Positions 15,356 through 50,670 of a DNA stretch of 64,000 nt are shown in pieces. The notes below the pieces were generated by a model. The model searched no databases. It was not told where the DNA came from and worked only from the letters and a program-made list of their open reading frames with translations. Position numbers and translations under genes: made by a program. Location: contig OY783217.1 in NCBI GenBank assembly GCA_963678705.1, positions 9,176,001 through 9,240,000 of the forward strand. The letters run 5' to 3'. The DNA is from Panorpa germanica. Lineage: Eukaryota; Arthropoda; Insecta; Mecoptera; Panorpidae. Every line of letters begins with the position of its first letter. Position 1 is the stretch's first letter.

Positions 15356-18300
15356 ATGACTATGAACTATATTGCGAGTGTGCCAAAGCTAAAAGGCAGA
15401 GAGAATTACGATGAGTGGTGTTTCGCGGCCGAAAACTTGTTGGTACTAGAAGGGATGGAAAAGTACATCAAACCTAGTGCAGACTTCGAAGTTAAGCCAG
15501 TGGACGACTCCAAAACGAAGGCAAAGCTAATTTTGACCATCGATCCAGCATTGTACGTGCATATAAGGAATACCAGGAGCTCGGCAGAATTATGGACAAA
15601 ATTGAAAGCCATGTTCGATGACTCCGGTTTCTCAAGAAAAATAACCTTACTTCGACATTTGATTTCGATAAGACTTGAAAACTGTGATTCGATGACTACC
15701 TATGTCACACAAATGATCGAAACGGCTCAAAAGTTAAATGGCACTGGATTTACAATAACAGATGAATGGGTCGGATCATTATTATTAGCAGGTTTGACTG
15801 ATCGCTATTCTCCAATGATAATGGCAATAGAACATTCTGGCATTTCGATAAGTGCGGATACTATAAAGTCGAAGTTACTCGACATGGAAGTAACCAGTGA
15901 TTTTGAAGGTGCAGCTGGCGGTACGGCGGCATTTGCAGTGAGAAATAAATATAATTCTGGCAGCAGCGGTAAACCAAAGAAATATGGCGGCAACCCAATG
16001 TCGAACAAAAAGACCGCGGCAGATACAACAGCAAAAACAATCACTTGTTTCAAATGTAAAGAGGATGGACATTATCGAAATCAGTGCCCAATGTTGAAGA
16101 AAAACACAAATAAATGCGTGTTTAACGTTGTTTTCCTAAACGGAAAGTATAACAAAAACGAATGGTACATTGACTCCGGCGCAAGTGCACACATAACAGC
16201 AAATAAAGATTGGGTAAAGAACATGAACACAACTCCATGTATACCAGAAATTGTTGTAGCAAATGAATCAAAAGTGCCAGTTGTTTGTTCCGGAGAAGTT
16301 GACATTATTTCTGAACTTGGATGCAATATAACAGTGAAAGATGTGTTGTGTGTGCCTAGCCTGACAACCAACCTATTGTCGGTTAGTGAGCTCATTCAGA
16401 ATGGCAATCATGTGATATTTACAAAGAAAAACTGTTATATTAGAGACAAGAACAATGTTTTGGTGGCGACAGCTGATTTATCTGATGGTGTTTATAAGTT
16501 GAGATTACAATCACAAAGTTGTATGTTGGCTACTACAGCTAGTGCAAAGTTATGGCACAGAAGACTGGCACATATAAACAGCCAAGACATGCACAGAATG
16601 AGAAATGGTATTGTTGATGGTTTGTCTTATGATAACTCACTTGACATAACCAAATCACAATGTACTACTTGTTGTGAGGGAAAACAAATGAGATTACCAT
16701 TTTCTCATGTGGGTGAGCGGAGTACAGAAACTTTACACAGAATCCACACAGATATTTGCGGCCCAATGGAAACAAGTTCTTTGAGTGGTGCTCGCTATTT
16801 CCTGTTATTTGTTGATGATTATAGTCGCATGACTTTTATTTATTTTCTGAAGCAAAAGAATGAAGCTTTGAACAGATTTAAAGAGTTCAAATCATTGGTT
16901 GAGAATCAACAGAGTAAGAAAATAAAGGTGATCAGGTCAGACAATGGACTAGAATTTTGTAACAAGGAATTTGAAGGCTATTTGAAGCAAGCTGGAATTA
17001 TACACCAGAAAACAAATTGTTATACACCTGAGCAAAATGGACTTTGTGAAAGGAGTAATCGTACAGTTGTTGAGAAAGCCAAATGTTTACTATATGATGC
17101 AAATTTAGATAAGAAATTTTGGGCGGAAGCAGCCAATACTGCTGTGTACTTGAAAAATAGATCGATTGCATCAGGATTGGATAAAACACCTTATGAGTTA
17201 TGGTATGGATCAAAACCAGACTTAAGTCACCTACGTTTGTTTGGAAGCAAAATTATGGTGCATGTACCCAAACAGAAACGTTTGAAATGGGACAAGAAAG
17301 CTACACAACATATTCTAGTTGGATATGGTGATGGTGTTAAAGGTTATCGTGTGTACAATCCTTCTAAGAACACTGTAATGATCAGTAGAGATATAATAGT
17401 GATGGAAGATGTAACACCTATCAAGGAAGTCAGTGAAGAGTCAGCTATTTGGATATCCAATGAAGAAAATCCTACCGACAATTTAGTGGAGGAAAGTAAA
17501 GATAAAGTGGGGGAGAGCAGAGATTCAGTGGGGGATCTGTCTAATAATGTTTCAGAAACAGATTTTTTAGATTGCTCTTCAGGTTCCTCATTACATACTG
17601 ATGACAATGAAACACTGACTGAAATAAACACTGAAGATGTTCCAGAACAAGCAGTATCAATACCTGAGCAAGTGCCAGATGTGCCAAGTAAGCGTCAGAG
17701 AAAGAAGCCTGAGCGCTATGGTATTAGCAACATATGTGTTTCCAGTACTGTTCCAGCATCGGAGGAGATTGTATTCTCAGAGGCTCTTGAAGGGCCTGAT
17801 CGGGAGCAGTGGAAGCAGGCAATGGCTGATGAATTACAGTCATTTGAGGACAGTGATGCGTGGCAGCTTGTGGACCATCCAGGTGATGTGACAATAGTGA
17901 AGTGTAGGTGGGTGCTAAATAAAAAGTATGATTTTGAAAACAATGTAAGGTATAGGGCTCGATTAGTGGCAAAAGGTTTCTCGCAGAAACCAGGTGTTGA
18001 TTATACAGATACTTTTTCACCGGTAGTGCGGCATTCTACTCTAAGATTGTTGTTTGCACTTAGTGTTCAAATGAAAATGAGTATAACACATCTAGATGTA
18101 ACCACTGCTTTCCTTAATGGTTTTTTGAAAGAAAATATTTATATGTCATTACCTGAAGGTTTTGTAAACAAAAGTGGGGGAAAGGTCTTAAAATTAAATA
18201 AAGCCATTTATGGGTTAAAACAGTCTTCCCTGGCATGGTATGAAAGAGTTAAAGAAGTTTTGAGTAGATTAGATTTCAAAAATAGTCAATATGAACCATG

Positions 18301-19294
18301 TTTGTTTACAAAAATAACTGGTAAAATTAAAGTGATAGTGGCCCTGTATGTGGATGATTTTTTGATTTTTTCAAACAATGATTTTGAAACAAATAAATTA
18401 AAAAGTGTATTAGGTTCAGAATTTAAGTTAAAAGACTTGGGACCTGTAAGACAATATTTAGGCATGAGAATAAATTTAGATAAAAATAAAAATGTTATTA
18501 CTGTAGATCAACAACAATATATTGAACAGTTAGTTTCTAAATTTCAAATGTCTGATTGTAAGACACAAAGTACTCCGATTGAGCCTAAATTGAATTTAGA
18601 TAAGTCATCTGATAAATGTTTACCTGATGTTCCTTATCAAAAACTTATTGGAAGTCTGATGTATCTGGCAGTATTAACAAGACCAGATATTGCTTACTGT
18701 GTTAGCTATCTCAGTCAATTTAATAGTTGTTATAGTCACATACATTGGAATTATTGTAAACGTGTATTAAGATATTTACTGCATACTAAAAGTTATTGTT
18801 TAAAATATACCAATAATAACAATAGTAATTTACAAGGTTTTGTAGACAGTGATTGGGCAAGTGATGCTCTAGATAGAAAATCCTATACTGGATTTTGCTT
18901 TATGTTGTCAGGGTCTGCCATTTCCTGGCAAAGTAGGAAGCAGAAAACGGTTTCATTATCCAGTACTGAGGCGGAATACACTGCTCTTTCTGAAGCTTCA
19001 AGAGAAGCTATTTATCTAAGAAATTTAATGCATGAAATTACTGATGTATTTAATGTAATTGATTTGTATTGTGATAACCAAAGTGCATTGAAGTTAGCCT
19101 CGAGTAGTCAGAGTCATAATAGATCCAAGCATATAGATGTGCGTTGTCATTTTATTAGAGATGTTGTAAAGAACAACTTTGTAAAAGTTAAGTACATTCC
19201 TACTGAAGAAATGCCTGCAGATATTTTAACAAAAGGTCTTTGTCATCTGAAACATTATAAGTTTATGAATTTACTTGGCATTGTTTCTGTGTAA
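15356..19294 (+). CDS. Copia gag-pol polyprotein
   Basis: 1312 codons in one frame. Gag N-terminus of the UBN2/Copia type occupies about residues 1-200. A CCHC zinc knuckle (C231-x2-C-x4-H-x4-C244) follows. The aspartic protease has WYIDSGASAH with Asp273. Next is the pre-integrase HHCC region around LWHRRLAH (about 398-440). The integrase core shows Asp466, Asp529 and Glu565, a correct D-D-35-E spacing. Reverse transcriptase has YVDD at 998-1001. RNase H carries Asp1164 (VDSDWAS), Glu1205 (STEAEY) and the CDN and KHIDVRCH motifs near the C-terminus (EMPADILTKG). All catalytic residues I looked for are present. The start is the first ATG after the primer site, 82 bases beyond the LTR; a second Met is at residue 3. 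There is no frameshift between gag and pol, so their ratio must be set some other way, such as the splicing used by copia. Confidence 0.96.
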   Translation: MTMNYIASVPKLKGRENYDEWCFAAENLLVLEGMEKYIKPSADFEVKPVDDSKTKAKLILTIDPALYVHIRNTRSSAELWTKLKAMFDDSGFSRKITLLRHLISIRLENCDSMTTYVTQMIETAQKLNGTGFTITDEWVGSLLLAGLTDRYSPMIMAIEHSGISISADTIKSKLLDMEVTSDFEGAAGGTAAFAVRNKYNSGSSGKPKKYGGNPMSNKKTAADTTAKTITCFKCKEDGHYRNQCPMLKKNTNKCVFNVVFLNGKYNKNEWYIDSGASAHITANKDWVKNMNTTPCIPEIVVANESKVPVVCSGEVDIISELGCNITVKDVLCVPSLTTNLLSVSELIQNGNHVIFTKKNCYIRDKNNVLVATADLSDGVYKLRLQSQSCMLATTASAKLWHRRLAHINSQDMHRMRNGIVDGLSYDNSLDITKSQCTTCCEGKQMRLPFSHVGERSTETLHRIHTDICGPMETSSLSGARYFLLFVDDYSRMTFIYFLKQKNEALNRFKEFKSLVENQQSKKIKVIRSDNGLEFCNKEFEGYLKQAGIIHQKTNCYTPEQNGLCERSNRTVVEKAKCLLYDANLDKKFWAEAANTAVYLKNRSIASGLDKTPYELWYGSKPDLSHLRLFGSKIMVHVPKQKRLKWDKKATQHILVGYGDGVKGYRVYNPSKNTVMISRDIIVMEDVTPIKEVSEESAIWISNEENPTDNLVEESKDKVGESRDSVGDLSNNVSETDFLDCSSGSSLHTDDNETLTEINTEDVPEQAVSIPEQVPDVPSKRQRKKPERYGISNICVSSTVPASEEIVFSEALEGPDREQWKQAMADELQSFEDSDAWQLVDHPGDVTIVKCRWVLNKKYDFENNVRYRARLVAKGFSQKPGVDYTDTFSPVVRHSTLRLLFALSVQMKMSITHLDVTTAFLNGFLKENIYMSLPEGFVNKSGGKVLKLNKAIYGLKQSSLAWYERVKEVLSRLDFKNSQYEPCLFTKITGKIKVIVALYVDDFLIFSNNDFETNKLKSVLGSEFKLKDLGPVRQYLGMRINLDKNKNVITVDQQQYIEQLVSKFQMSDCKTQSTPIEPKLNLDKSSDKCLPDVPYQKLIGSLMYLAVLTRPDIAYCVSYLSQFNSCYSHIHWNYCKRVLRYLLHTKSYCLKYTNNNNSNLQGFVDSDWASDALDRKSYTGFCFMLSGSAISWQSRKQKTVSLSSTEAEYTALSEASREAIYLRNLMHEITDVFNVIDLYCDNQSALKLASSSQSHNRSKHIDVRCHFIRDVVKNNFVKVKYIPTEEMPADILTKGLCHLKHYKFMNLLGIVSV

Positions 19295-22321: not shown

Positions 22322-23148
22322 GTGGTGAGGAGGAGAAATCTTCTATAAGACTGTCGCCTGACAGCCCGTCGGGACGTGTTGGATTCACCCTCGCTGGAAG
22401 AGCGCCTACCAACTAAAACTCCCCCTCTCTTCATCTAGACCACAATCTGGTACCGCAATTGCATTCCTTCAGACTGGATCTTGATACCCGAGTTCCGGTT
22501 ACGATGTTGTGTTGACGTCCAGTTCCTTGGTTTTGAGAATTTTCGTGACGAAGACTCGAACCGCACTCCAATACTCTTCCTTCTCCACCATAATATTAAC
22601 AATATTATCTACGGTCAGTGTGGTTCCCGTTATCGTCCGTACTTCTTCCCTTTCCATCGTCCATCGGCCACAATAGAAGAACGTATGTTCTGGTGTATCG
22701 ACATGTTCACAGTACCAACATTTGTCGGACTCTCTCTTTTTGAATCTCTTCAAGTAACTCCCAAAGCATCCATGTCCTCCGAGAAATTGTGTTATAAAAT
22801 AATCAATTTCCCCGTATTTTCGATTTTTCCAAGTACTGATCTTCCGTATTAGCCTTTTAGTCCACACCGCTTTACCGGTCTCTTTCTCCCACTCGCATTG
22901 CCACTTTTTTAAAACTTCTTTCCTTACTTCCTGGTGTTTTTCTTCTTTTTCCATATAGACCCTTTTCCGCTCTTCCACCAGTAGTGCCAGAGGTACTATT
23001 CCGCTTATCACCTGGACAGCTTCTGCCGAGATTGTGCGATAAGCACTACTCACTCGTATTGCCATTCTACGTTGCACACTCAATAACATATTTCTATATT
23101 TTTTGAGTTTTACAGCTTCTTCCCATATCGGTGCAGCATACAGCATTA
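22296..23148 (-). mobile_element. 5'-truncated R1-clade LINE
   Basis: An 853-bp insertion on the minus strand. It starts (5' truncation) at 23,148 and ends in a poly(A) tail, seen as about 25 T on the plus strand from 22,296. It is flanked by a perfect 16-bp duplication. The content is the C-terminal end of ORF2 plus about 180 bp of 3' UTR. Perfect duplications, a clean tail and an open frame show recent retrotransposition with the usual 5' truncation. Confidence 0.9.
22499..23146 (-). pseudogene. C-terminal fragment of R1-clade LINE ORF2
   Basis: 215 open codons, from the truncation to a natural stop. It begins YAAPIWEEA, the segment just after the reverse-transcriptase domain in R1/TRAS-type ORF2. 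It continues through the GHGCFGSYLKRF block into a CCHC motif, C-x2-C-x7-H-x4-C (CWYCEHVDTPEHTFFYC), followed by GRWTMEREE. This block order is characteristic of the ORF2 C-terminus in the R1 clade. Endonuclease and polymerase domains are missing, so it cannot act alone. The apparent Met at the start is only the first ATG after the break. Confidence 0.85.
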
Positions 23149-23817
<669 letters not shown>

Positions 23818-31700: not shown

Positions 31701-31920
31701 TGTTATTCTATTCTATTCTCTATTGTATTGTATTGTATTGATGTCATTGATTTTAAATATATGTTATTATTATTTGGTGCAATACGAATAATAATAACGA
31801 AGCAAGTCATGAAAACTTGATTTCTTGCCATGGCAGATTGCGACAATGTGAAAAAAAATATTGAATTTAATATCGAAATATTATAGTAGGGCAGTCTAGT
31901 TTCTACACAAGCGACGACTG

Positions 31921-32040
31921 TTATTTGTATATGAATTTAAATTTCATTTCAAATTTTAATATCATTTTTAAATTGAAATATTAAACTCTTACCATATTTA
32001 TTTTACATATAACAAATAATTTTTCATAGAAACTGAAAAA
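31921..32040 (+). repeat. Diverged copy of the foldback element's inner-arm LINE sequence
   Basis: TTTCATTTCAAATTTTAAT, CATTTTTAAATTGAAATATT, TTACATATAACAAATAAT and TTTTCATAGAAACTGAA follow the same order as 45,299-45,405 in the right arm (and its mirror in the left arm). Probably an independent old copy of the LINE fragment embedded in the arms. Confidence 0.45.
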
Positions 32041-37475: not shown

Positions 37476-37484
37476 AGATGTCAG
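37476..37484. repeat. Foldback target-site duplication, left copy
   Basis: AGATGTCAG abuts the outer end of the left arm and is repeated exactly at 50,662-50,670. Confidence 0.85.
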
Positions 37485-37590
37485 ACGTCGGTGAAGTTCG
37501 CAGCGCCGTCTAGCAGCGCGATGGAAACTAGTGGTGTCAATAACATAGCTGTCTACAGTCTCATAGAGAATATTCGAAATTGCTATTATA
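37485..37590 (+). repeat. Terminal inverted repeat, left end
   Basis: Starts ACGTCGGTGAAGTTCGCAGC. It contains two close copies of an AGCGC word (GCAGCGCCG and TAGCAGCGCGA), then ATGGAAACTAGTGGTGT. Matched in reverse at about 50,556-50,661 with a few substitutions. The TAGCAGCGCGA word also occurs inside the 33-bp insert found in some array units. Confidence 0.8.
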
Positions 37591-37867
37591 CAGTTCAAAT
37601 GCAAACTTAACCGTCATTATTGTTACTATTGACATAAATACAAAATGTAATAATAGAAAATAAACATTTGCAATCATATATTAGCACTAAGGAATAATAA
37701 ACGCCTATACAAAAATAGAATTATTTTAACGAATATGCAAACATTAGAATAAGTAACTTCTCATCTTTATTTTTATAAAATACTTAACACGTTAAGAGTG
37801 TTTACTTTAAATAACTATATTTTAAATTCAAAACAATATAATATTCGGAATTAGAGGAATTTGAATA

Positions 37868-40800
37868 GTGTTGTATTTCATACACTCAGGTAAATATGCT
37901 GATATAAAAACTGAAAAAAAACGAATTATACATTTTTATTTTTTAATAAAATTAAACGTGTGTATAGTATACACTATACATAACAATAATTTAAATTCAA
38001 AACCATGGGAAAATAAGTTAGATTCGGAGATACAGGTCTTTGAAAAGTGTTATATTTCATACGCACAGGTATACATGGTGATATAAAAACTCAAAAAAAA
38101 GGAATTATACATATTTATTTTTTAATAAAATTAAACGTGTGTATAGTATACACTATACATAACAATAATTTAAATTCAAAACCAGGAGAAAATAAATTAG
38201 ATTCGGAGGTACAGGTCTTTGAAAAGTGTTATATTTCATACGCACAGGTATACATGGTGATATAAAAACTCAAAAAAAAGGAATTATACATATTTATTTT
38301 TTAATAAAATTAAACGTGTGTATAGTATACACTATACATAACAATAATTTAAATTCAAAACCAGGAGAAAATAAATTAGATTCGGAGGTACAGGTCTTTG
38401 AAAAGTGTTATATTTCATACGCACAGATATACATGGTGATATAAAGCGCAAGTAATCAAAGATAGCAGCGCGAAGATAAACTCAAAAAAAAGGAATTATA
38501 CATCTTTATTTTTTAATAAAATTAAACGTGTGTATAGTATACACTATACATAACAATAATTTAAATTCAAAACCATGAAAAAATAAATTAGATTCGGAGA
38601 TACAGGTCTTTGAAAAGTGTTATATTTTATACGCACAGATATACATGGTGATATAAAAACTCAAAAAAAAGGAATTATACATATTTATTTTTTAATAAAA
38701 TTTAACATGTGTATAGTATACACTATACATAACAATAATTTAAATTCAAAACCAGGAGAAAATAAATTAGATTCGGAGGTACAGGTCTTTGAAAAGTGTT
38801 ATATTTTATACGCACAGATATACATGGTGATATAAAAACTCAAAAAAAAGGAATTATACATATTTATTTTTTAATAAAATTAAACGTGTGTATAGTATAC
38901 ACTATACATAACAATAATTTAAATTCAAAACCATGGGAAAATAAGTTAGATTCGGAGATACAGGTCTTTGAAAAGTGTTATATTTCATACGCACAGATAT
39001 ACATGGTGATATAAAGCGCAAGTAATCAAAGATAGCAGCGCGAAGATAAACTCAAAAAAAAGAATTATACATATTTATTTTTTAATAAAATTAAACATGT
39101 GTATAGTATACACTATACATAACAATAATTTAAATTCAAAACCAGGAGAAAATAAATTAGATTCGGAGGTACAGGTCTTTGAAAAGTGTTATATTTTATA
39201 CGCACAGATATACATGGTAATATAAAAACTCAAAAAAAAGGAATTATACATATTTATTTTTTAATAAAATTAAACGTGTGTATAGTATACACTATACATA
39301 ACAATAATTTAAATTCAAAACCAGGAGAAAATAAATTAGATTCGGAGGTACAGGTCTTTGAAAAGTGTTATATTTTATACGCACAGATATACATGGTAAT
39401 ATAAAAACTCAAAAAAAAGAAATTATACATATTTATTTTTTAATAAAATTAAACATGTGTATAGTATACACTATACATAACAATAATTTAAATTCAAAAC
39501 CAGGAGAAAATAAATTAGATTCGGAGGTACAGGTCTTTGAAAAGTGTTATATTTTATACGCACAGATATACATGGTAATATAAAAACTCAAAAAAAAGGA
39601 ATTATACATATTTATTTTTTAATAAAATTTAACATGTGTATAGTATACACTATACATAACAATAATTAAAATTCAAAACCAGGAGAAAATAAATTAGATT
39701 CGGAGGTACAGGTCTTGGAAAAGTGTTATATTTTATACGCACAGATATACATGGTAATATAAAAACTCAAAAAAAAGGAATTATACATATTTATTTTTTA
39801 ATAAAATTAAACGTGTGTATAGTATACACTATACATAACAATAATTTAAATTCAAAACCAGGAGAAAATAAATTAGATTCGGAGGTACAGGTCTTTGAAA
39901 AGTGTTATATTTCATACGCACAGGTATACATGGTGATATAAAAACTCAAAAAAAAGGAATTATACATATTTATTTTTTAATAAAATTAAACGTGTGTATA
40001 GTATACACTATACATAACAATAATTTAAATTTAAAACCAGGAGAAAATAAATTAGATTCGGAGGTACAGGTCTTTGAAAAGTGTTATATTTTATACGCAC
40101 AGATATACATGGTGATATAAAAACTCAAAAAAAAGGAATTATACATATTTATTTTTTAATAAAATTAAACGTGTGTATAGTATACACTATACATAACAAT
40201 AATTTAAATTCAAAACCATGGGAAAATAAGTTAGATTCAGAGATACAGGTCTTTGAAAAGTGTTATATTTCATACGCACAGATATACATGGTGATATAAA
40301 AACTCAAAAAAAAGGAATTATACATATTTATTTTTTAATAAAATTGAACATGTGTATAGTATACACTATACATAACAATAATTTAAATTTAAAACCAGGA
40401 GAAAATAAATTAGATTCGGAGGTACAGGTCTTTGAAAAGTGTTATATTTTATACGCACAGATATACATGGTGATATAAAAACTCAAAAAAAAGGAATTAT
40501 ACATATTTATTTTTTAATAAAATTAAACGTGTGTATAGTATACACTATACATAACAATAATTTAAATTCAAAACCATGGGAAAATAAGTTAGATTCGGAG
40601 ATACAGGTCTTTGAAAAGTGTTATATTTCATACGCACAGATATACATGGTGATATAAAGCGCAAGTAATCAAAGATAGCAGCGCGAAGATAAACTCAAAA
40701 AAAAGGAATTATACATATTTATTTTTTAATAAAATTAAACGTGTGTATAGTATACACTATACATAACAATAATTTAAATTCAAAACCAGGAGAAAATAAA

Positions 40801-42155
40801 TTAGATTCGGAGGTACAGGTCTTTAAAAAGTGTTATATTTTATACGCACAGATATACATGGTAATATAAAAACTCAAAAAAAAGGAATTATACATATTTA
40901 TTTTTTAATAAAATTAAACATGTGTATAGTATACACTATACATAACAATAATTTAAATTCAAAACCAGGAGAAAATAAATTAGATTCGGAGGTACAGGTC
41001 TTTGAAAAGTGTTATATTTTATACGCACAGATATACATGGTAATATAAAAACTCAAAAAAAAGGAATTATACATATTTATTTTTTAATAAAATTTAACAT
41101 GTGTATAGTATACACTATACATAACAATAATTTAAATTCAAAACCAGGAGAAAATAAATTAGATTCGGAGGTACAGGTCTTGGAAAAGTGTTATATTTTA
41201 TACGCACAGATATACATGGTAATATAAAAACTCAAAAAAAAGGAATTATACATATTTATTTTTTAATAAAATTAAACGTGTGTATAGTATACACTATACA
41301 TAACAATAATTTAAATTCAAAACCATGGGAAAATAAGTTAGATTCAGAGATACAGGTCTTTGAAAAGTGTTATATTTCATACGCACAGATATACATGGTG
41401 ATATAAAAACTCAAAAAAAAGGAATTATACATATTTATTTTTTAATAAAATTGAACATGTGTATAGTATACACTATACATAACAATAATTTAAATTTAAA
41501 ACCAGGAGAAAATAAATTAGATTCGGAGGTACAGGTCTTTGAAAAGTGTTATATTTTATACGCACAGATATACATGGTGATATAAAAACTCAAAAAAAAG
41601 GAATTATACATATTTATTTTTTAATAAAATTAAACGTGTGTATAGTATACACTATACATAACAATAATTTAAATTCAAAACCATGGGAAAATAAGTTAGA
41701 TTCGGAGATACAGGTCTTTGAAAAGTGTTATATTTCATACGCACAGATATACATGGTGATATAAAGCGCAAGTAATCAAAGATAGCAGCGCGAAGATAAA
41801 CTCAAAAAAAAGGAATTATACATATTTATTTTTTAATAAAATTAAACATGTGTATAGTATACACTATACATAACAATAATTTAAATTCAAAACCAGGAGA
41901 AAATAAATTAGATTCGGAGGTACAGGTCTTTGAAAAGTGTTATATTTTATACGCACAGATATACATGGTAATATAAAAACTCAAAAAAAAGGAATTATAC
42001 ATATTTATTTTTTAATAAAATTAAACGTGTGTATAGTATACACTATACATAACAATAATTTAAATTCAAAACCAGGAGAAAATAAATTAGATTCGGAGGT
42101 ACAGGTCTTTGAAAAGTGTTATATTTCATACGCACAGATAAAGATGCTGATATAA
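37868..42155 (+). repeat. Tandem array, 23 units of 179 bp (left arm)
   Basis: Unit starts fall every 179 bases (37,868; 38,047; 38,226; ...), except four steps of 211-212 caused by a 33-bp insert at 38,446, 39,016, 40,659 and 41,766. Every full unit has TGTATAGT-ATAC-ACTATACA, an 8-bp stem with a 4-base loop. Edge units are the most diverged and middle units nearly identical, the pattern made by unequal exchange. The 72-codon frame in each unit shifts phase between units and is not taken as coding. Confidence 0.95.
38446..38478 (+). repeat. 33-bp insert with terminal-repeat motif (first of six)
   Basis: The insert starts GCGCAAGTAATC and contains TAGCAGCGCGA (38,463-38,473), the same 11-mer as in the terminal inverted repeat. 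Other copies: 39,016-39,048, 40,659-40,691, 41,766-41,798, and reversed at 48,917-48,949 and 49,666-49,698. Confidence 0.8.
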
Positions 42156-42169
42156 AAACTCAAAAAAAA

Positions 42170-42951
42170 AAAAGAAATTATACATCTTTATTTTTCAATA
42201 ATATTTAACATGTGTATTATACATTACTATATTTTAAATTCAAAACAATTTAAAAATATTATAGGTTCGGTAGTACAGGTTAATGTAAAAAGAAATAGTT
42301 TATTTTATTGTGAATAATTTTTAAATATGCTGGTAACATCTAGTATTTTAAATTATGTCGCAATAACGCTCACAGATGACACTGTTATAAAAAATATTTT
42401 TCTGTATAATAAGCGAAATACGTTCAGGAATTTGGGGATTCCCTGTTCATTTTGCCGCCAAGCTGTCTGTCATAATTTGTCATTAACGCTTAATATTACT
42501 GTGTAAATAAATTATTGGGTGATTTGTGCTGAAACACTTTAAAACTGTAAGTACCTTTATTTCGTTATACTAACTGTTGTTATATGCATACATATATATA
42601 TAGTATTTTATTTTTATTAACATCATATCGAAATAATCTTTTTTTTTAATTACTTCTAATAATATTATATTCTATAACAGTAAAATTCTATTATTACATC
42701 TACTTATTAAAGAACAATGATTAAACAACAACATAATGGATCAAGAAATTACTAACATCAATCCATTAACTATTGCCAATTTTTGGGCTGCGCTGATTAT
42801 TACTAAAGAAATTGAAATATTGTTTATTATTACTTATTACTATGTTTATTATTACACTACTGTTATAATATAATACATACATTTCTTGAGAAGACGTTTT
42901 CAAATAGATTTTCTAAGGAGTAAACTACAACTATGATATTATTTATTTCAG
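42170..42951 (+). promoter_or_regulatory. Upstream region and leader intron of the left SGNH gene
   Basis: A consensus splice donor (ACT|GTAAGTACC, intron from 42,547) and an acceptor (TTATTTCAG ending 42,951) define a likely 5' UTR exon ending at 42,546 and a second one starting at 42,952 that carries the start codon. The promoter would lie in about 42,300-42,500; no clear TATA box. A 45-codon frame in the intron (42,736-42,873, MDQEITNINPLTIANFW, then a hydrophobic tail) may be chance. Mirror copy at 47,048-47,829. Confidence 0.45.
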
Positions 42952-43031
42952 TCACTTCAATTAGATTAGCAATAAGTTGGTTATCAAGAACAACTTTGAA
43001 ATTGTTGAAGCGTAGCAGAACACAATAAAAT

Positions 43032-43888
43032 ATGGTAAGATTAAAAATGGATTACTATTACATATAATAGAACAAATAATAGTCTGAAGTAATTGACTAA
43101 CTTAATATTCTAGGACCGTGAATACTACTTATTTGGTAGCAGCTCTTTAGTGCGCTATGGAAAATGTGTTTTTAACATTCCACGAAAAGTGAAAAAGGTA
43201 GACAGAGCTGTAAGTGGAAGAACTGCTCGACAGTTGGAATGCAGCCTTCGTCACGTAAAAGAGAGCGACGCAAAAATAAAAAAAGGTTTGGTGATGATTG
43301 GAATAAACGATGTTATAAATGTAAGTAAAATATAACTATTCACAATGAAATCAAAATATCTGAATATTTATAATACTATATATAATAAAATATTTTCAGA
43401 ACTGTTCACCAAGGAAGTTCAAGCAAATAATTCAATCAATTGCAAAGAAGCTAAAAGGCATACGCGTGATTTGGCTAACACTTCCAACACCTCCAAGATT
43501 TATGATGGACAAGAAAAAATTAATGCTGTTGGATATATACAACAACCATATTGTTAAATTAGAAAAACGTAATACAACTTACAATACAAGTAATACAAGT
43601 AAATCAAATAAACAATGCATAGTATTGAAAATATTTTATTTAATTATAGAAGACCATATAACAGTATTAGACATACGTAACGAATTTAAAGAAAACAGTG
43701 GAGAAGTAAAGGAAACATTCTTTGAAAGGTAAATATTATAAAGTTATATCTTACTGAAACCTAACTGAAATTTTAATAATATTTTTATTCTAAATTGAAG
43801 GTATTACCATGATGGCAGGACGGATCTGCTACATTGGAACTTAAGAGGGATTAATGCAGCAGAAGCATTAGTTAAAAAATATCTATAA
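43032..43888 (+). CDS. SGNH (GDSL-like) hydrolase, left-arm copy
   Basis: Five coding exons: 43,032-43,034 (ATG), 43,114-43,320, 43,400-43,568, 43,650-43,728 and 43,801-43,888. All junctions are GT-AG and the sum is 181 codons. The third intron (81 bp) is in frame and could be retained. SGNH blocks in order: FGSSSL around Ser11 (nucleophile candidate; GSS replaces GDS), AVSGRTA with Gly36, IGINDV with Gly64-Ile-Asn66-Asp67, and DLLHWNLRG with Asp161-x-x-His164. TLPTPPR at 97-103 fits the strand after block III. No signal peptide or membrane segment, so probably cytosolic. The family hydrolyses esters, thioesters and acyl groups; substrate unknown. Size fits a minimal single-domain member. The second copy at 46,111-46,967 is inverted and identical at every point compared. 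Confidence 0.75.
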
Positions 43889-44098
43889 TCCTTAATAATC
43901 CTTTCTTTTTGGCTGACTTTTGTTAATGAAATCTTTGTTTTTATTATATATTAATTGTGTGTGCCTTTCGGCTTTACAATCTACAGTATTATATTTCTAA
44001 TACATTTCATTCCTATATACATTCAAACTTAAAACTAAACTTAAAATATTCTAGACTTTTACTACTTCCAAAAGTGCTTTCTGCTTCTTCTTCTTTTG

Positions 44099-44599
44099 AC
44101 CCTCTCTATTATTCTCCACCAGCTTATTTGAAATCTTTGTTTATCATATTAAAGTTTGGTTTTTTCTTTATACTAAAAATTTCATATTTAGGTAATTTCA
44201 CTTTCATTTTAATTTCCAAATTTATAAATTCCTTTGCTAATTTATCTGCAATTTAGTTTCCTCTTATTGTGTATCTTAATACACAATGTCTTTATATCCA
44301 CATTTATTTTATGGTATTAGTTTTGTAAATTAAATTGAAATAAAGCTTCTTAATTCAGCATGTCAATATATTATTATTTCATTTGTGGTCATTTGAATAT
44401 TTTGTAAAACACATAAAGAATCTGATATTATTTATTATAATTTCATTTGTATTTAATTATCTTTCCAATGCATTTAATATTGCTAATTTTTTACCAGTAT
44501 AGGAACATACCTTGTTATTTAATTTAAATTTAGCATACAAATAATTAGTTTTTTTCTAAATCAATGGCAAAAAAGTACAGCTTGAGATTTTTCTACTGA
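44099..44599 (-). pseudogene. LINE RT/RNase H relic in the left arm
   Basis: Mirror image of 45,400-45,900. Read on the minus strand it gives CSYTGKKLAILNALER, then, 80 codons on in the same frame, IRGN*IADKLAKEF, where the stop replaces the conserved Glu of the LINE RNase H motif GNEIADKLAKE. Several stops interrupt it. It lies just downstream of the SGNH gene, on the opposite strand. Confidence 0.6.
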
Positions 44600-44718
44600 A
44601 ATTGAACTTTATATGAAAAATTATTAGTTATTATATGTAATATTAATATACGAGTTAAATATTTTAATTTAAAAATGGAATTAAAATTTGAAATGAAATT
44701 CATTTTATACAAAAAAGA

Positions 44719-45280
44719 CTGTGGTCGTTTGCGACGGAGGTCAGTGCTAGTACTATTTAAAACAATACAGATATCAGTACAGATAACAATAAGAGATATC
44801 ACAATCGACAGCTTGATTTTGATCTTCTCTTCCCTTTTGCTTCTGGTGATACTGATTCATGCAGTGGATCTGTGTAGAAAAGGTTCCAGCAACTGGTACT
44901 GTAAAGCAGTAAAGTTATAATAGTAATAGTAATCATAATAATAATAATAATAATAGTAATTTACTCGTTAGTTAATCTATTTGTAAACGTCTTTTCAAGA
45001 AATGTATGTATTATATTATAACAGTAGTGTAATAAATAATAAACAATATTTCATGATACATAAACAAATAAATGTAGCAGCTATACCAAGCGAGCAGGTG
45101 AGTATCATAGCCAGGAGGGGAAGGATAGGTATGGAAATGGAATTAGAATAAGAAGGACAATAACAAAACTGAAAAGAGTAATACATAAAAATAAGGTACA
45201 ATAAGAAAATAATTTTGTTACACTAGTAATACTCGTATGTGAATATAACTTTATTAATATATGTATATACTATGAAAAAC
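44719..45280. other. Central spacer (loop) of the foldback element
   Basis: 562 bp not shared inversely between the arms. It holds an (ATA)n-like run at about 44,931-44,965, a third, diverged copy of arm sequence (44,957-45,056, related to 47,062-47,190) and a 5' GC-richer part. A frame from 44,675 to 44,920 (81 codons, one hydrophobic stretch SLILIFSSLLLLVILI) starts in the arm and is not recognised. No transposase motif. Confidence 0.7.
44957..45056 (-). repeat. Third, diverged copy of leader-intron sequence in the spacer
   Basis: CAAGAAATGTATGTATTATA and AACAGTAGTGTAATAA, preceded by a CTATTTG..AACGTCTT word, follow right-arm 47,091-47,150. TTTACTCGTTAG at the left edge corresponds to TTTACTCCTTAG at 47,078. 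Differences include the loss of a short stretch near 47,157-47,175. Same orientation as the right arm. Confidence 0.7.
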
Positions 45281-45399
45281 TCTTTTTTGTATAAAATGAA
45301 TTTCATTTCAAATTTTAATTCCATTTTTAAATTAAAATATTTAACTCGTATATTAATATTACATATAATAACTAATAATTTTTCATATAAAGTTCAATT

Positions 45400-45900
45400 T
45401 CAGTAGAAAAATCTCAAGCTGTACTTTTTTGCCATTGATTTAGAAAAAAACTAATTATTTGTATGCTAAATTTAAATTAAATAACAAGGTATGTTCCTAT
45501 ACTGGTAAAAAATTAGCAATATTAAATGCATTGGAAAGATAATTAAATACAAATGAAATTATAATAAATAATATCAGATTCTTTATGTGTTTTACAAAAT
45601 ATTCAAATGACCACAAATGAAATAATAATATATTGACATGCTGAATTAAGAAGCTTTATTTCAATTTAATTTACAAAACTAATACCATAAAATAAATGTG
45701 GATATAAAGACATTGTGTATTAAGATACACAATAAGAGGAAACTAAATTGCAGATAAATTAGCAAAGGAATTTATAAATTTGGAAATTAAAATGAAAGTG
45801 AAATTACCTAAATATGAAATTTTTAGTATAAAGAAAAAACCAAACTTTAATATGATAAACAAAGATTTCAAATAAGCTGGTGGAGAATAATAGAGAGGGT
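45400..45900 (+). pseudogene. LINE RT/RNase H relic in the right arm
   Basis: The frame from 45,489 reads VCSYTGKKLAILNALER, resembling the first helix region of LINE RNase H domains. In the same frame at 45,735-45,770 it reads RGN*IADKLAKE, the conserved RNase H end with one stop. Upstream, SVEKSQAVLF (about 45,403-45,432, other frame) fits the end of a reverse transcriptase. About seven in-frame stops. Related sequence outside the element: 31,921-32,040. Confidence 0.6.
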
Positions 45901-46110
45901 CAAAAGAAGAAGAAGCAGAAAGCACTTTTGGAAGTAGTAAAAGTCTAGAATATTTTAAGTTTAGTTTTAAGTTTGAATGTATATAGGAATGAAATGTATT
46001 AGAAATATAATACTGTAGATTGTAAAGCCGAAAGGCACACACAATTAATATATAATAAAAACAAAGATTTCATTAACAAAAGTCAGCCAAAAAGAAAGGA
46101 TTATTAAGGA

Positions 46111-46967
46111 TTATAGATATTTTTTAACTAATGCTTCTGCTGCATTAATCCCTCTTAAGTTCCAATGTAGCAGATCCGTCCTGCCATCATGGTAATACCT
46201 TCAATTTAGAATAAAAATATTATTAAAATTTCAGTTAGGTTTCAGTAAGATATAACTTTATAATATTTACCTTTCAAAGAATGTTTCCTTTACTTCTCCA
46301 CTGTTTTCTTTAAATTCGTTACGTATGTCTAATACTGTTATATGGTCTTCTATAATTAAATAAAATATTTTCAATACTATGCATTGTTTATTTGATTTAC
46401 TTGTATTACTTGTATTGTAAGTTGTATTACGTTTTTCTAATTTAACAATATGGTTGTTGTATATATCCAACAGCATTAATTTTTTCTTGTCCATCATAAA
46501 TCTTGGAGGTGTTGGAAGTGTTAGCCAAATCACGCGTATGCCTTTTAGCTTCTTTGCAATTGATTGAATTATTTGCTTGAACTTCCTTGGTGAACAGTTC
46601 TGAAAATATTTTATTATATATAGTATTATAAATATTCAGATATTTTGATTTCATTGTGAATAGTTATATTTTACTTACATTTATAACATCGTTTATTCCA
46701 ATCATCACCAAACCTTTTTTTATTTTTGCGTCGCTCTCTTTTACGTGACGAAGGCTGCATTCCAACTGTCGAGCAGTTCTTCCACTTACAGCTCTGTCTA
46801 CCTTTTTCACTTTTCGTGGAATGTTAAAAACACATTTTCCATAGCGCACTAAAGAGCTGCTACCAAATAAGTAGTATTCACGGTCCTAGAATATTAAGTT
46901 AGTCAATTACTTCAGACTATTATTTGTTCTATTATATGTAATAGTAATCCATTTTTAATCTTACCAT
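46111..46967 (-). CDS. SGNH (GDSL-like) hydrolase, right-arm copy
   Basis: Exact inverted counterpart of the left-arm gene. Coding exons: 46,965-46,967, 46,679-46,885, 46,431-46,599, 46,271-46,349 and 46,111-46,198. Same splice signals, 181 codons, and the same Ser11, Gly36, Asn66, Asp161 and His164 candidates. No difference seen between the two copies across the exons. The two genes converge on the spacer, so read-through from both would make complementary RNA. An introduced difference would be expected to be erased by conversion between the arms. Confidence 0.75.
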
Positions 46968-47047
46968 ATTTTATTGTGTTCTGCTACGCTTCAACAATTT
47001 CAAAGTTGTTCTTGATAACCAACTTATTGCTAATCTAATTGAAGTGA

Positions 47048-47829
47048 CTGAAATAAATAATATCATAGTTGTAGTTTACTCCTTAGAAAATCTATTTGAA
47101 AACGTCTTCTCAAGAAATGTATGTATTATATTATAACAGTAGTGTAATAATAAACATAGTAATAAGTAATAATAAACAATATTTCAATTTCTTTAGTAAT
47201 AATCAGCGCAGCCCAAAAATTGGCAATAGTTAATGGATTGATGTTAGTAATTTCTTGATCCATTATGTTGTTGTTTAATCATTGTTCTTTAATAAGTAGA
47301 TGTAATAATAGAATTTTACTGTTATAGAATATAATATTATTAGAAGTAATTAAAAAAAAAGATTATTTCGATATGATGTTAATAAAAATAAAATACTATA
47401 TATATATGTATGCATATAACAACAGTTAGTATAACGAAATAAAGGTACTTACAGTTTTAAAGTGTTTCAGCACAAATCACCCAATAATTTATTTACACAG
47501 TAATATTAAGCGTTAATGACAAATTATGACAGACAGCTTGGCGGCAAAATGAACAGGGAATCCCCAAATTCCTGAACGTATTTCGCTTATTATACAGAAA
47601 AATATTTTTTATAACAGTGTCATCTGTGAGCGTTATTGCGACATAATTTAAAATACTAGATGTTACCAGCATATTTAAAAATTATTCACAATAAAATAAA
47701 CTATTTCTTTTTACATTAACCTGTACTACCGAACCTATAATATTTTTAAATTGTTTTGAATTTAAAATATAGTAATGTATAATACACATGTTAAATATTA
47801 TTGAAAAATAAAGATGTATAATTTCTTTT
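47048..47829 (-). promoter_or_regulatory. Upstream region and leader intron of the right SGNH gene
   Basis: Mirror of 42,170-42,951: leader intron 47,048-47,452, with the 5' UTR exon starting at 47,453. The upstream sequence is identical as compared, so both genes should be driven alike. Confidence 0.45.
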
Positions 47830-47843
47830 TTTTTTTTGAGTTT

Positions 47844-50276
47844 TTATATCAGCATCTTTATCTGTGCGTATGAAATATAACACTTTTCAAAGACCTGTAC
47901 CTCCGAATCTAATTTATTTTCTCCTGGTTTTGAATTTAAATTATTGTTATGTATAGTGTATACTATACACACGTTTAATTTTATTAAAAAATAAATATGT
48001 ATAATTCCTTTTTTTTGAGTTTTTATATTACCATGTATATCTGTGCGTATAAAATATAACACTTTTCAAAGACCTGTACCTCCGAATCTAATTTATTTTC
48101 TCCTGGTTTTGAATTTAAATTATTGTTATGTATAGTGTATACTATACACACGTTTAATTTTATTAAAAAATAAATATGTATAATTCCTTTTTTTTGAGTT
48201 TTTATATTACCATGTATATCTGTGCGTATAAAATATAACACTTTTCCAAGACCTGTACCTCCGAATCTAATTTATTTTCTCCTGGTTTTGAATTTAAATT
48301 ATTGTTATGTATAGTGTATACTATACACATGTTAAATTTTATTAAAAAATAAATATGTATAATTCCTTTTTTTTGAGTTTTTATATTACCATGTATATCT
48401 GTGCGTATAAAATATAACACTTTTCAAAGACCTGTACCTCCGAATCTAATTTATTTTCTCCTGGTTTTGAATTTAAATTATTGTTATGTATAGTGTATAC
48501 TATACACATGTTTAATTTTATTAAAAAATAAATATGTATAATTCCTTTTTTTTGAGTTTTTATATTACCATGTATATCTGTGCGTATAAAATATAACACT
48601 TTTCAAAGACCTGTACCTCCGAATCTAATTTATTTTCTCCTGGTTTTGAATTTAAATTATTGTTATGTATAGTGTATACTATACACACGTTTAATTTTAT
48701 TAAAAAATAAATATGTATAATTCCTTTTTTTTGAGTTTTTATATCACCATGTATACCTGTGCGTATGAAATATAACACTTTTCAAAGACCTGTACCTCCG
48801 AATCTAATTTATTTTCTCCTGGTTTTGAATTTAAATTATTGTTATGTATAGTGTATACTATACACATGTTTAATTTTATTAAAAAATAAATATGTATAAT
48901 TCCTTTTTTTTGAGTTTATCTTCGCGCTGCTATCTTTGATTACTTGCGCTTTATATCACCATGTATATCTGTGCGTATAAAATATAACACTTTTCAAAGA
49001 CCTGTACCTCCGAATCTAATTTATTTTCTCCTGGTTTTAAATTTAAATTATTGTTATGTATAGTGTATACTATACACATGTTTAATTTTATTAAAAAATA
49101 AATATGTATAATTCCTTTTTTTTGAGTTTTTATATCACCATGTATATCTGTGCGTATGAAATATAACACTTTTCAAAGACCTGTATCTCTGAATCTAACT
49201 TATTTTCCCATGGTTTTGAATTTAAATTATTGTTATGTATAGTGTATACTATACACACGTTTAATTTTATTAAAAAATAAATATGTATAATTCCTTTTTT
49301 TTGAGTTTTTATATTACCATGTATATCTGTGCGTATAAAATATAACACTTTTCAAAGACCTGTACCTCCGAATCTAATTTATTTTCTCCTGGTTTTGAAT
49401 TTAAATTATTGTTATGTATAGTGTATACTATACACATGTTAAATTTTATTAAAAAATAAATATGTATAATTTCTTTTTTTTGAGTTTTTATATCACCATG
49501 TATATCTGTGCGTATAAAATATAACACTTTTCAAAGACCTGTATCTCCGAATCTAATTTATTTTCCCATGGTTTTGAATTTAAATTATTGTTATGTATAG
49601 TGTATACTATACACACGTTTAATTTTATTAAAAAATAAAGATGTATAATTCCTTTTTTTTGAGTTTATCTTCGCGCTGCTATCTTTGATTACTTGCGCTT
49701 TATATCACCATGTATATCTGTGCGTATGAAATATAACACTTTTCAAAGACCTGTACCTCCGAATCTAATTTATTTTCTCCTGGTTTTGAATTTAAATTAT
49801 TGTTATGTATAGTGTATACTATACACACGTTTAATTTTATTAAAAAATAAATATGTATAATTCCTTTTTTTTGAGTTTTTATATCACCATGTATACCTGT
49901 GCGTATGAAATATAACACTTTTCAAAGACCTGTACCTCCGAATCTAATTTATTTTCTCCTGGTTTTGAATTTAAATTATTGTTATGTATAGTGTATACTA
50001 TACACACGTTTAATTTTATTAAAAAATAAATATGTATAATTCCTTTTTTTTGAGTTTTTATATCACCATGTATACCTGTGCGTATGAAATATAACACTTT
50101 TCAAAGACCTGTATCTCCGAATCTAACTTATTTTCCCATGTTTTTGAATTTAAATTATTGTTATGTATAGTGTATACTATACACACGTTTAATTTTATTA
50201 AAAAATAAAAATGTATAATTCGTTTTTTTTCAGTTTTTATATCAGCATATTTACCTGAGTGTATGAAATACAACAC
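47844..50276 (-). repeat. Tandem array, 13 units of 179 bp (right arm)
   Basis: Same unit as the left array in reverse. Two 33-bp inserts, at 48,917-48,949 and 49,666-49,698. Ten units fewer than the left arm. Confidence 0.95.
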
Positions 50277-50555
50277 TATTCAAATACCTCTAATTCCGAA
50301 TTTATTATATTGTTTTGAATTTAAAATATAGTTATTTAAAGTAAACACTCTTAACGTGTTAAGTATTTTATAAAAATAAAGATGAGAAGTTACTTATTCT
50401 AATGTTTGCATATTCGTTAAAATAATTCTATTTTTGTATAGGCGTTTATTATTCCTTAGTGCTAATATATGATTGCAAATGTTTATTTTCTATTATTACA
50501 TTTTGTATTTATGTCAATAGTAACAATAATGACGGTTAAGTTTGCATTTGAACTG

Positions 50556-50661
50556 TATAATAGCAATTTCGAATATTCTCTATGAGACTGTAGACAGCTA
50601 TGTTATTCACACCACTAGTTTCCATCGCGCTGCTAGACCGCGCTGCTAACTTCACCGACGT
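50556..50661 (-). repeat. Terminal inverted repeat, right end
   Basis: Ends ...CTTCACCGACGT at 50,661. Contains TCGCGCTGCTA (reverse of TAGCAGCGCGA) and CGCGCTGCTAA. Three substitutions from the left end in the outer 50 bases. Confidence 0.8.
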
Positions 50662-50670
50662 AGATGTCAG
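50662..50670. repeat. Foldback target-site duplication, right copy
   Basis: AGATGTCAG, identical to 37,476-37,484. Confidence 0.85.

Follow-up and report, generated by a model that had tools for sequence, protein, structure and literature searches.

A 64,000-nucleotide stretch of the Panorpa germanica genome (G000:C14:9176001-9240000 of 464 Mb; hereafter the window) contains two long inverted arms with the same gene in each, and it raises the question of what kind of element this is and how it came to be mirrored. We read it as one non-autonomous copy of a family of cut-and-paste DNA transposons and give this reading as a whole a probability of about 0.82. Copies of the family have in common their ends, inverted arms with arrays of a 179-bp unit, and target duplications of 9 bp or sometimes 8 bp.

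The insert in the window (copy C14w) spans 37485-50661 (13,177 bp) and lies between two copies of AGATGTCAG, at 37476 and 50662. The window holds no further copy of this sequence, and its reverse complement is absent. The arms end exactly at this 9-bp direct duplication. The left arm L (37485-44718) measures 7,234 bp, the right arm R (45281-50661) 5,381 bp and the centre between them (44719-45280) 562 bp. A long-gap alignment of the two arms has 5,379 aligned columns, and the bases agree in 5,357 of them (99.6%); the gaps are four large ones, all in the tandem array (1,285, 179, 179 and 212 bp), and one of 2 bp. The order of parts is a flanking domain (FD), 24 units, a segment S, the centre (Lp), a mirrored S, 14 units and a second FD, with zero pieces of a transposase gene left; the unit numbers depend on the assembly. 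The first-pass annotation had described inverted arms around a unique 562-bp centre, bracketed by the duplication. The arms, their exact ends and the size of the centre are borne out, while 96 bp of the centre resemble the arm at 89.6%, which makes it partly non-unique.

The array units have a stretch in common with FD. The 11-base motif TAGCAGCGCGA occurs in the window in inserts within the arrays and near both element ends and nowhere else, a distribution which suggests that the inserts may provide extra transposase-binding sites in the arms. Such sites are attributed to the Galileo element in the paper on the Tetris element (PMC4079207). Outside the insert, about 125 bp at 31908-32032 are 80% like the innermost arm bases, so that the arm end contains, or belongs to, a dispersed repeat. 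A piece reading IRGN.IADKLAKEF at 44256-44060 (minus strand), with its mirror, looks by eye like a decayed RNase H piece of a long interspersed nuclear element (LINE) in both arms. It had no Pfam support in three translations, a part of the six frames, and the same scan also missed the hydrolase described below, the exons of which are split over frames. Scans of the window with Rfam (gathering cut-offs) and for tRNAs gave no matches.

Does the insert stand alone, or does it belong to a family? A genome search for the terminal sequence had been proposed at first pass, and it led to other copies. The end sequence ACGTCGGTGAAGTTNGCAGC was found at 229 + 226 sites with at most 2 mismatches, compared to 1 + 0 sites for the reversed control. 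Neighbourhoods were fetched for the best 40 of 176 candidates scored with the left end, and 18 two-ended copies were mapped. An exact 9-bp target duplication flanks 15 of the 18, each of a different sequence; the remaining three have 8 bp (C4), 2 bp (C6a) and none in direct orientation (C8a). When flanks of different copies were mispaired as a control, the longest match among 306 pairs was 4 bp. Eleven further pairs of exact ends comprise nine with 9 bp (one in a TA repeat), one with 8 bp and one, 19.7 kb apart, with none. Five of the 23 loci examined were left out of the 18 pairs: C9 (one start, three ends, flanks without a match), C11 (a start only 82.8% like the family, mismatched flanks), C1d and C195 (a single end in the fetched stretch) and C6b, the second end of which was obtained later and gave a 9-bp duplication. 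With C9 and C11 taken as pairs, exact duplications are found in 15 of 20. There is also a sister subfamily with ends ACGTCGGTGAAGATAGC, in which two pairs tested have duplications of 8 and 9 bp; in the sister element C1:25260980-25267803, the first 12 bases of the ends agree with those of the window subfamily and the target duplication is 8 bp long.

An empty paralogous site was found for one copy, C7a: its flanks, joined with a single duplication between them, align to L031:955-1075 through the join with 91% identity in 122 columns. Among 272 mispaired joins used as a control, 18 matches extend over the join by more than 15 bases. A crossing of more than 40 bases was seen once, and this match uses the right flank of C7a itself. 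Join-crossing matches of C1b were not counted because this copy sits in a short tandem repeat. No empty site for the window copy was present in the fetched DNA. With long arms partly of tandem units, a small centre, a target duplication and dispersed copies, the element has the features of the foldback class, and the first-pass proposal of a foldback transposon with a 9-bp target duplication is upheld by the family, the duplications and the empty site of C7a. A miniature element of 114 bp with related ends and flanks sharing 8 bp was observed at G000:C1:25189964-25190077 (L069), and several more ends of the form ACGTCGGTGAAGTACGCAGC are among the matches listed.

The full plan of the family is seen in C6a and reads FD, array, S, Lp, M, transposase (reversed), TI, array, FD. 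Other copies hold less: four of the 18 consist of arms only (C16, C12a, C15, C19), four have a single partial S piece (C3, C4, C8b, C12b), and C1c lost the transposase by deletion. Two copies carry insertions. C7a (G000:C7:6898368-6911566; L019, L020) has within its single hydrolase segment S what is by eye a LINE, with open frames of 486 and 1,248 codons, and in C1b (G000:C1:20186964-20213914; L011-L013) the right-hand units are interrupted by 13.8 kb of foreign DNA.

Which protein could move these copies? A reversed open reading frame (ORF) lies between the arms of C6a and C8a; it is broken in C6a, and the C8a frame runs uninterrupted over 1,111 codons, giving 1,092 amino acids (aa) from the first ATG. 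The sole Pfam domain above chance in this protein is Peptidase_C48 (Ulp1; E=5.9e-10), a part of the protein which the structures of SENP1 and SENP2 also match. The central 391 aa gave no Pfam match (E up to 10) and, with NCBIfam, only a bacterial peptide family at chance level. The Pfam model for Mutator-like elements (MULE) matched neither the 1,092-aa protein (E up to 1) nor its central 391 aa (E up to 10), and Pfam found no PHD finger in the protein. By eye, the central region has a D in GDATG, a D in TTDFS, CxxH in CCNH and an E in NALVESWF, in an order that may be a transposase signature; D, D, CxxH, E is the catalytic order of Mutator and MULE enzymes. We call this ORF a transposase mainly because two subfamilies share end sequence, duplication length and protein. 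Among the best 42 of 305 candidates scored in a tblastn search of the genome, relatives other than C8a have 42-99% identity and most are partial or have stops; a 44% relative, with stops, is located inside the sister element C1:25260980-25267803. We infer that the ORF with the Ulp1-type peptidase encodes a putative transposase which would act in trans on these ends.

The absence of a transposase, claimed at first pass, thus applies to the window copy and not to the family, whose same-ended relatives carry the large ORF with the C48 domain. A relative with the same ends and a MULE transposase had also been anticipated; the ends and the large ORF were found, the MULE domain was not. A 47% relative with an open frame of 1,170 codons (G000:C8:3733336-3736260) is a candidate sister lineage. 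Viral contigs scanned for the transposase, the hydrolase and an end sequence gave no matches.

One possibility is that the family is Mutator-like in the strict sense, that is, a MULE or Rehavkus foldback element, and we lean slightly towards it. Mutator and MULE elements make target duplications of about 8-11 bp, a range which includes the 9 bp, sometimes 8 bp, observed here. Satellite units in inverted termini are also described for the beetle family Rehavkus-1_TC (9.5 kb, 164-bp unit; PMC10218199), the 9-bp duplication is that of Rehavkus (PMC6446971), and Tetris was placed in Mutator on its duplications (PMC4079207). However, no MULE, PHD or other transposase domain was matched by Pfam, and the Mutator-like affinity proposed at first pass is tentative. 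Rehavkus, moreover, has a PHD finger and terminal inverted repeats (TIRs) of 26-400 bp (PMC6446971), whereas no PHD finger was found in this family and its arms are longer.

How did the mirror form arise? S is present on both sides, mirrored, in six of the 18 copies (C14w, C8a, C1a, C14b, C10, C7b). These six have five junctions, because C8a and C1a share one and the other four differ. In the window copy, a mirror copy of the hydrolase side stands in place of the transposase side. All 22 arm substitutions are confined to the outer 2,452 columns of the gapped alignment, leaving the inner 2,927 free of mismatches (p ~3e-8 under a uniform distribution); an ungapped BLAST alignment of the arm pair gave one mismatch in 2,921. 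The two ends of a copy differ by 1.8 on average compared to 5.1 between copies (permutation p 1e-4), while for the FD ends of the window copy the figure is 8, the highest among the 18 copies. Inner identity together with divergent FD ends is the pattern that copying of the inner part alone would leave. Copying of this kind could have started with a break or gap inside the element, after which the right end may have invaded the left arm at its array, which is homologous and inverted. The hydrolase segment S would then have been copied inwards from the left arm and the copied end joined to the remaining left side at Lp, and the doubling of the hydrolase would be a by-product of repair.

A tentative alternative, to which we give rather less than even odds, is that mirroring took place at another locus and the element then inserted here in its finished foldback form; this concerns the place of mirroring and not the transposon reading. 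Rearranged forms do move: C1a, C1b and C8a, which lie at three loci, have one inverted M/TI junction in common, and separate 9-bp duplications flank two of the three. The target duplication of the window copy is perfect. On the other hand, among the best 40 of 60 matches to the 120 bases over the window junction of Lp and mirrored S, only the window itself spans the junction and the other 39 cover one side, and no other of the 18 copies has FD ends as different as those of the window copy. Repair with copying of S within the window copy is the simplest reading.

What is the gene that was doubled? The gene cargo noted in both arms at first pass is one gene, an SGNH hydrolase, present twice. Its introns are GT-AG, and it matches Pfam PF13472 with E=4e-8 (34.4 bits, cut-off 32.9). 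Of the blocks which we take to be typical of SGNH proteins (GDS, GxND, DxxH), GIND and DLLH are present; block I is GSS in the window copy and GDS in C6a, C10 (right) and C12b. Domain match and blocks are those of an SGNH/GDSL enzyme, with a deviating block I in the window. Thirteen of the 15 S segments checked span the whole coding part, and all 13 are open with their splice dinucleotides kept; excluded from this check were S of C3 and C4 and the left S of C14b (all short), S of C7a (split by the LINE), the deleted right S of C1a, and S of C9, C11, C1d and C6b. In a set of 5.8 billion proteins, no homologues of the hydrolase were found with the whole protein (E up to 0.001) or with a 122-aa open stretch (E up to 10).

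Between subfamilies the hydrolase is under purifying selection. In a test with 11 exon pieces from 8 loci, which were picked from divergent genome matches by protein similarity and share ancestry, a possible source of bias, the ratio of nonsynonymous to synonymous divergence (dN/dS) of exon 2 was 0.11-0.24 in comparisons with seven divergent copies. For exon 3, compared with three copies, it was 0.36-0.49, and dS in the between-subfamily comparisons was 0.59-1.57. The aligned codons of the 11 pieces contain no stops. An eighth exon-2 copy (C2:6380424) gave 0.86 on four changes and is too close to inform. Matches to the hydrolase and the transposase adjoin at six divergent loci (Table 1), and in the window subfamily both genes are convergently oriented. 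A local alignment of the first 500 bases of S to the 5' region of the transposase scores 472, compared to a maximum of 49 in 50 shuffles; the ATG at 42736 is aligned to the transposase start, and the hydrolase model starts at the ATG at 43032. An older mirror event may thus have given the hydrolase its promoter. The hydrolase probably helps the element, and one guess for its substrate is an acyl or acetyl ester.

It is improbable that the hydrolase is a passive captured host gene, comparable to a Pack-MULE fragment. Gene capture by DNA transposons is known, including that of an SGNH hydrolase by a Helitron in platyfish (PMC4021074), and near-identical copies, with 3 silent and 13 replacement changes versus 345 and 1347 possible, reveal no constraint. 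Passive cargo is nevertheless difficult to reconcile with dN/dS well below 1 across subfamilies, with exon pieces free of stops and with a transposase neighbour at six divergent loci.

Several observations weigh against the transposon family as we describe it. The full-plan copy C6a lacks a target duplication and its transposase frame is broken. Only one transposase frame of the subfamily, that of C8a, is both full-length and uninterrupted among the best 42 of 305 candidates. The C8a flanks (G000:C8:959843-975775; L021, L022) are reverse complements at 312 of 313 bases, with an inverted and not a direct 9-bp repeat, so that this locus may be rearranged (a real inverted duplication) or misassembled. 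As to the superfamily, neither Pfam nor NCBIfam gave a match of a transposase model to the central region. The hydrolase shows no constraint among near-identical copies, has lost the usual GDS triplet in the window, and has many divergent matches in the genome that carry stops. Near the 42-51% transposase relatives, no hydrolase is among the matches listed; the two genes are thus not partnered everywhere, and the hydrolase may have joined later. Segments S are also identical between loci (window, C8a, C1a), and inner identity alone is therefore no proof of local copying. Fold-back chimeras exist and the C8a flanks are palindromic, but an assembly or read fold-back artefact is very hard to credit for the window, since its palindrome stops exactly at the direct 9-bp duplication and has a one-sided centre, its arms differ by 22 substitutions and in unit number, its two end sequences differ, and five other copies are mirrored via four other junctions.

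Table 1. Features of the window element (window positions) and loci at which hydrolase and transposase matches adjoin (genome positions).
Feature	Position	Strand	Basis or remark
Left target-site duplication AGATGTCAG	37476..37484	+	sequence match; family duplications
Right target-site duplication AGATGTCAG	50662..50670	+	sequence match; family duplications
Left flanking domain (FD), 376 bp, starts ACGTCGGTGAAGTTCGCAGC	37485..37860	+	end also found elsewhere in the genome
Right flanking domain (FD), 378 bp, starts ACGTCGGTGAAGTTAGCAGC	50284..50661	-	
Left 179-bp tandem array, 24 unit starts (last degenerate), four 32/33-bp inserts with TAGCAGCGCGA	37908..42279	+	
Right array of 179-bp units, 14 starts, TAGCAGCGCGA in two 33-bp inserts	47720..50236	-	
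Left S segment, 2,439 bp, contains the SGNH hydrolase gene	42280..44718	+	
Right S segment, mirror copy identical to left S	45281..47719	-	
5' region of S, homologous to the 5' region of the putative transposase	42280..42779	+	local alignment
SGNH hydrolase model, 188 aa, five exons (43032-43034, 43114-43320, 43400-43589, 43650-43728, 43801-43888)	43032..43888	+	
Second SGNH hydrolase copy, identical coding sequence	46111..46967	-	genome matches C14:9222114-9222885, minus
Centre (Lp), 562 bp; in fuller copies stands after S, towards the transposase gene	44719..45280	+	
Fold-back junction of Lp and mirrored S	45280..45281	.	~1 bp microhomology by eye
Hydrolase and transposase neighbours	C5:7755-7760 kb, C1:9108-9111 kb, C1:5902-5904 kb, C1:15966-15969 kb, C1:2713-2715 kb		same strand, transposase first
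Hydrolase and transposase neighbours	C9:4569-4572 kb		opposite strands

Elsewhere in the window, an intact copia-type polyprotein ORF of 1,312 aa is located at 15356-19294, with a 99% identical protein in the public protein set. What is by eye a LINE-like reverse-transcriptase tail is found at 22502-23146 (minus strand), adjoining a perfect TA run of 53.5 copies at 23158-23264.

Has this form of element been described before? The first-pass annotation knew of no such description, a claim that falls in part: Galileo, Tetris and Rehavkus-1_TC have similar forms. The window element works like Galileo, Tetris and Rehavkus and is filed under none of them. Galileo of Drosophila mojavensis includes two-recombinant-TIR copies, in which internal sequence was recruited into the inverted repeats in the order TIR1-F1-F1-TIR2 (PMC3573991). 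Like Galileo, the window family has long, internally repetitive inverted repeats, an internal region copied inverted into the other end, copies without a transposase, and chimeric copies without a matching duplication. Unlike the window family, Galileo belongs to the P-element superfamily, with a 7-bp duplication compared to 9 bp here, and its longest TIR is about 1.26 kb; the excerpt available does not mention a hydrolase (PMC3573991), and the window copy is on a larger scale and includes a whole gene.

Tetris of Drosophila virilis has the same succession of FD, tandem units (~220 bp in Tetris), inner domain and middle, with duplications of 8-10 bp, and in both elements the units share a stretch with FD (PMC4079207). 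In contrast to the window family, it has no conserved ORF or known transposase, and its TIRs reach 1,735 bp (PMC4079207). Rehavkus could be compared by description only, and the excerpts of its accounts do not mention SGNH or Ulp1 (PMC10218199, PMC6446971). Tm1 of root-knot nematodes resembles the window family in the tandem motifs of its foldback ends, its 9-bp duplications, an internal locus that is transcribed and a transposase-coding relative, and differs in size (1.1 and 2.6 kb for the two elements with a size given), in its 13-15-bp units and in its FLYWCH-MULE domains (PMC3169594).

SGNH/GDSL enzymes are known from LINE, RTEX and Penelope elements (PMC3905857) and from rotifer Terminons and long terminal repeat elements (PMC6431247, PMC5718144). 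As in these retroelements, an SGNH/GDSL hydrolase appears here as a companion function of a mobile element; unlike in the retroelements, it is a gene in its own right, with introns, and its carrier is a DNA transposon. Among the titles and abstracts listed in a literature search there was no cut-and-paste element with an SGNH gene, and none in which such a gene is selected and doubled by mirroring, which is no proof of absence, Repbase being outside the comparison.

Whether the family represents a new superfamily of DNA transposons, with a transposase outside the Pfam models, a fused Ulp1-type peptidase and a long-time SGNH partner, multiplied by mirror copying through satellite-built arms, is doubtful, and we consider it rather unlikely. 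If true, a cut-and-paste element would join the retroelements in keeping an SGNH hydrolase as a working companion. As it stands, the family offers a cut-and-paste element with a selected SGNH hydrolase, in which the role of SGNH hydrolases in mobile elements can be studied outside retrotransposons. Foldback structure is seen in the making within one genome, from copies with both genes (C8a, and C6a with a broken frame) to six mirrored by five junctions and four arms-only copies, and the origin of foldback elements becomes testable by the comparison of junctions.

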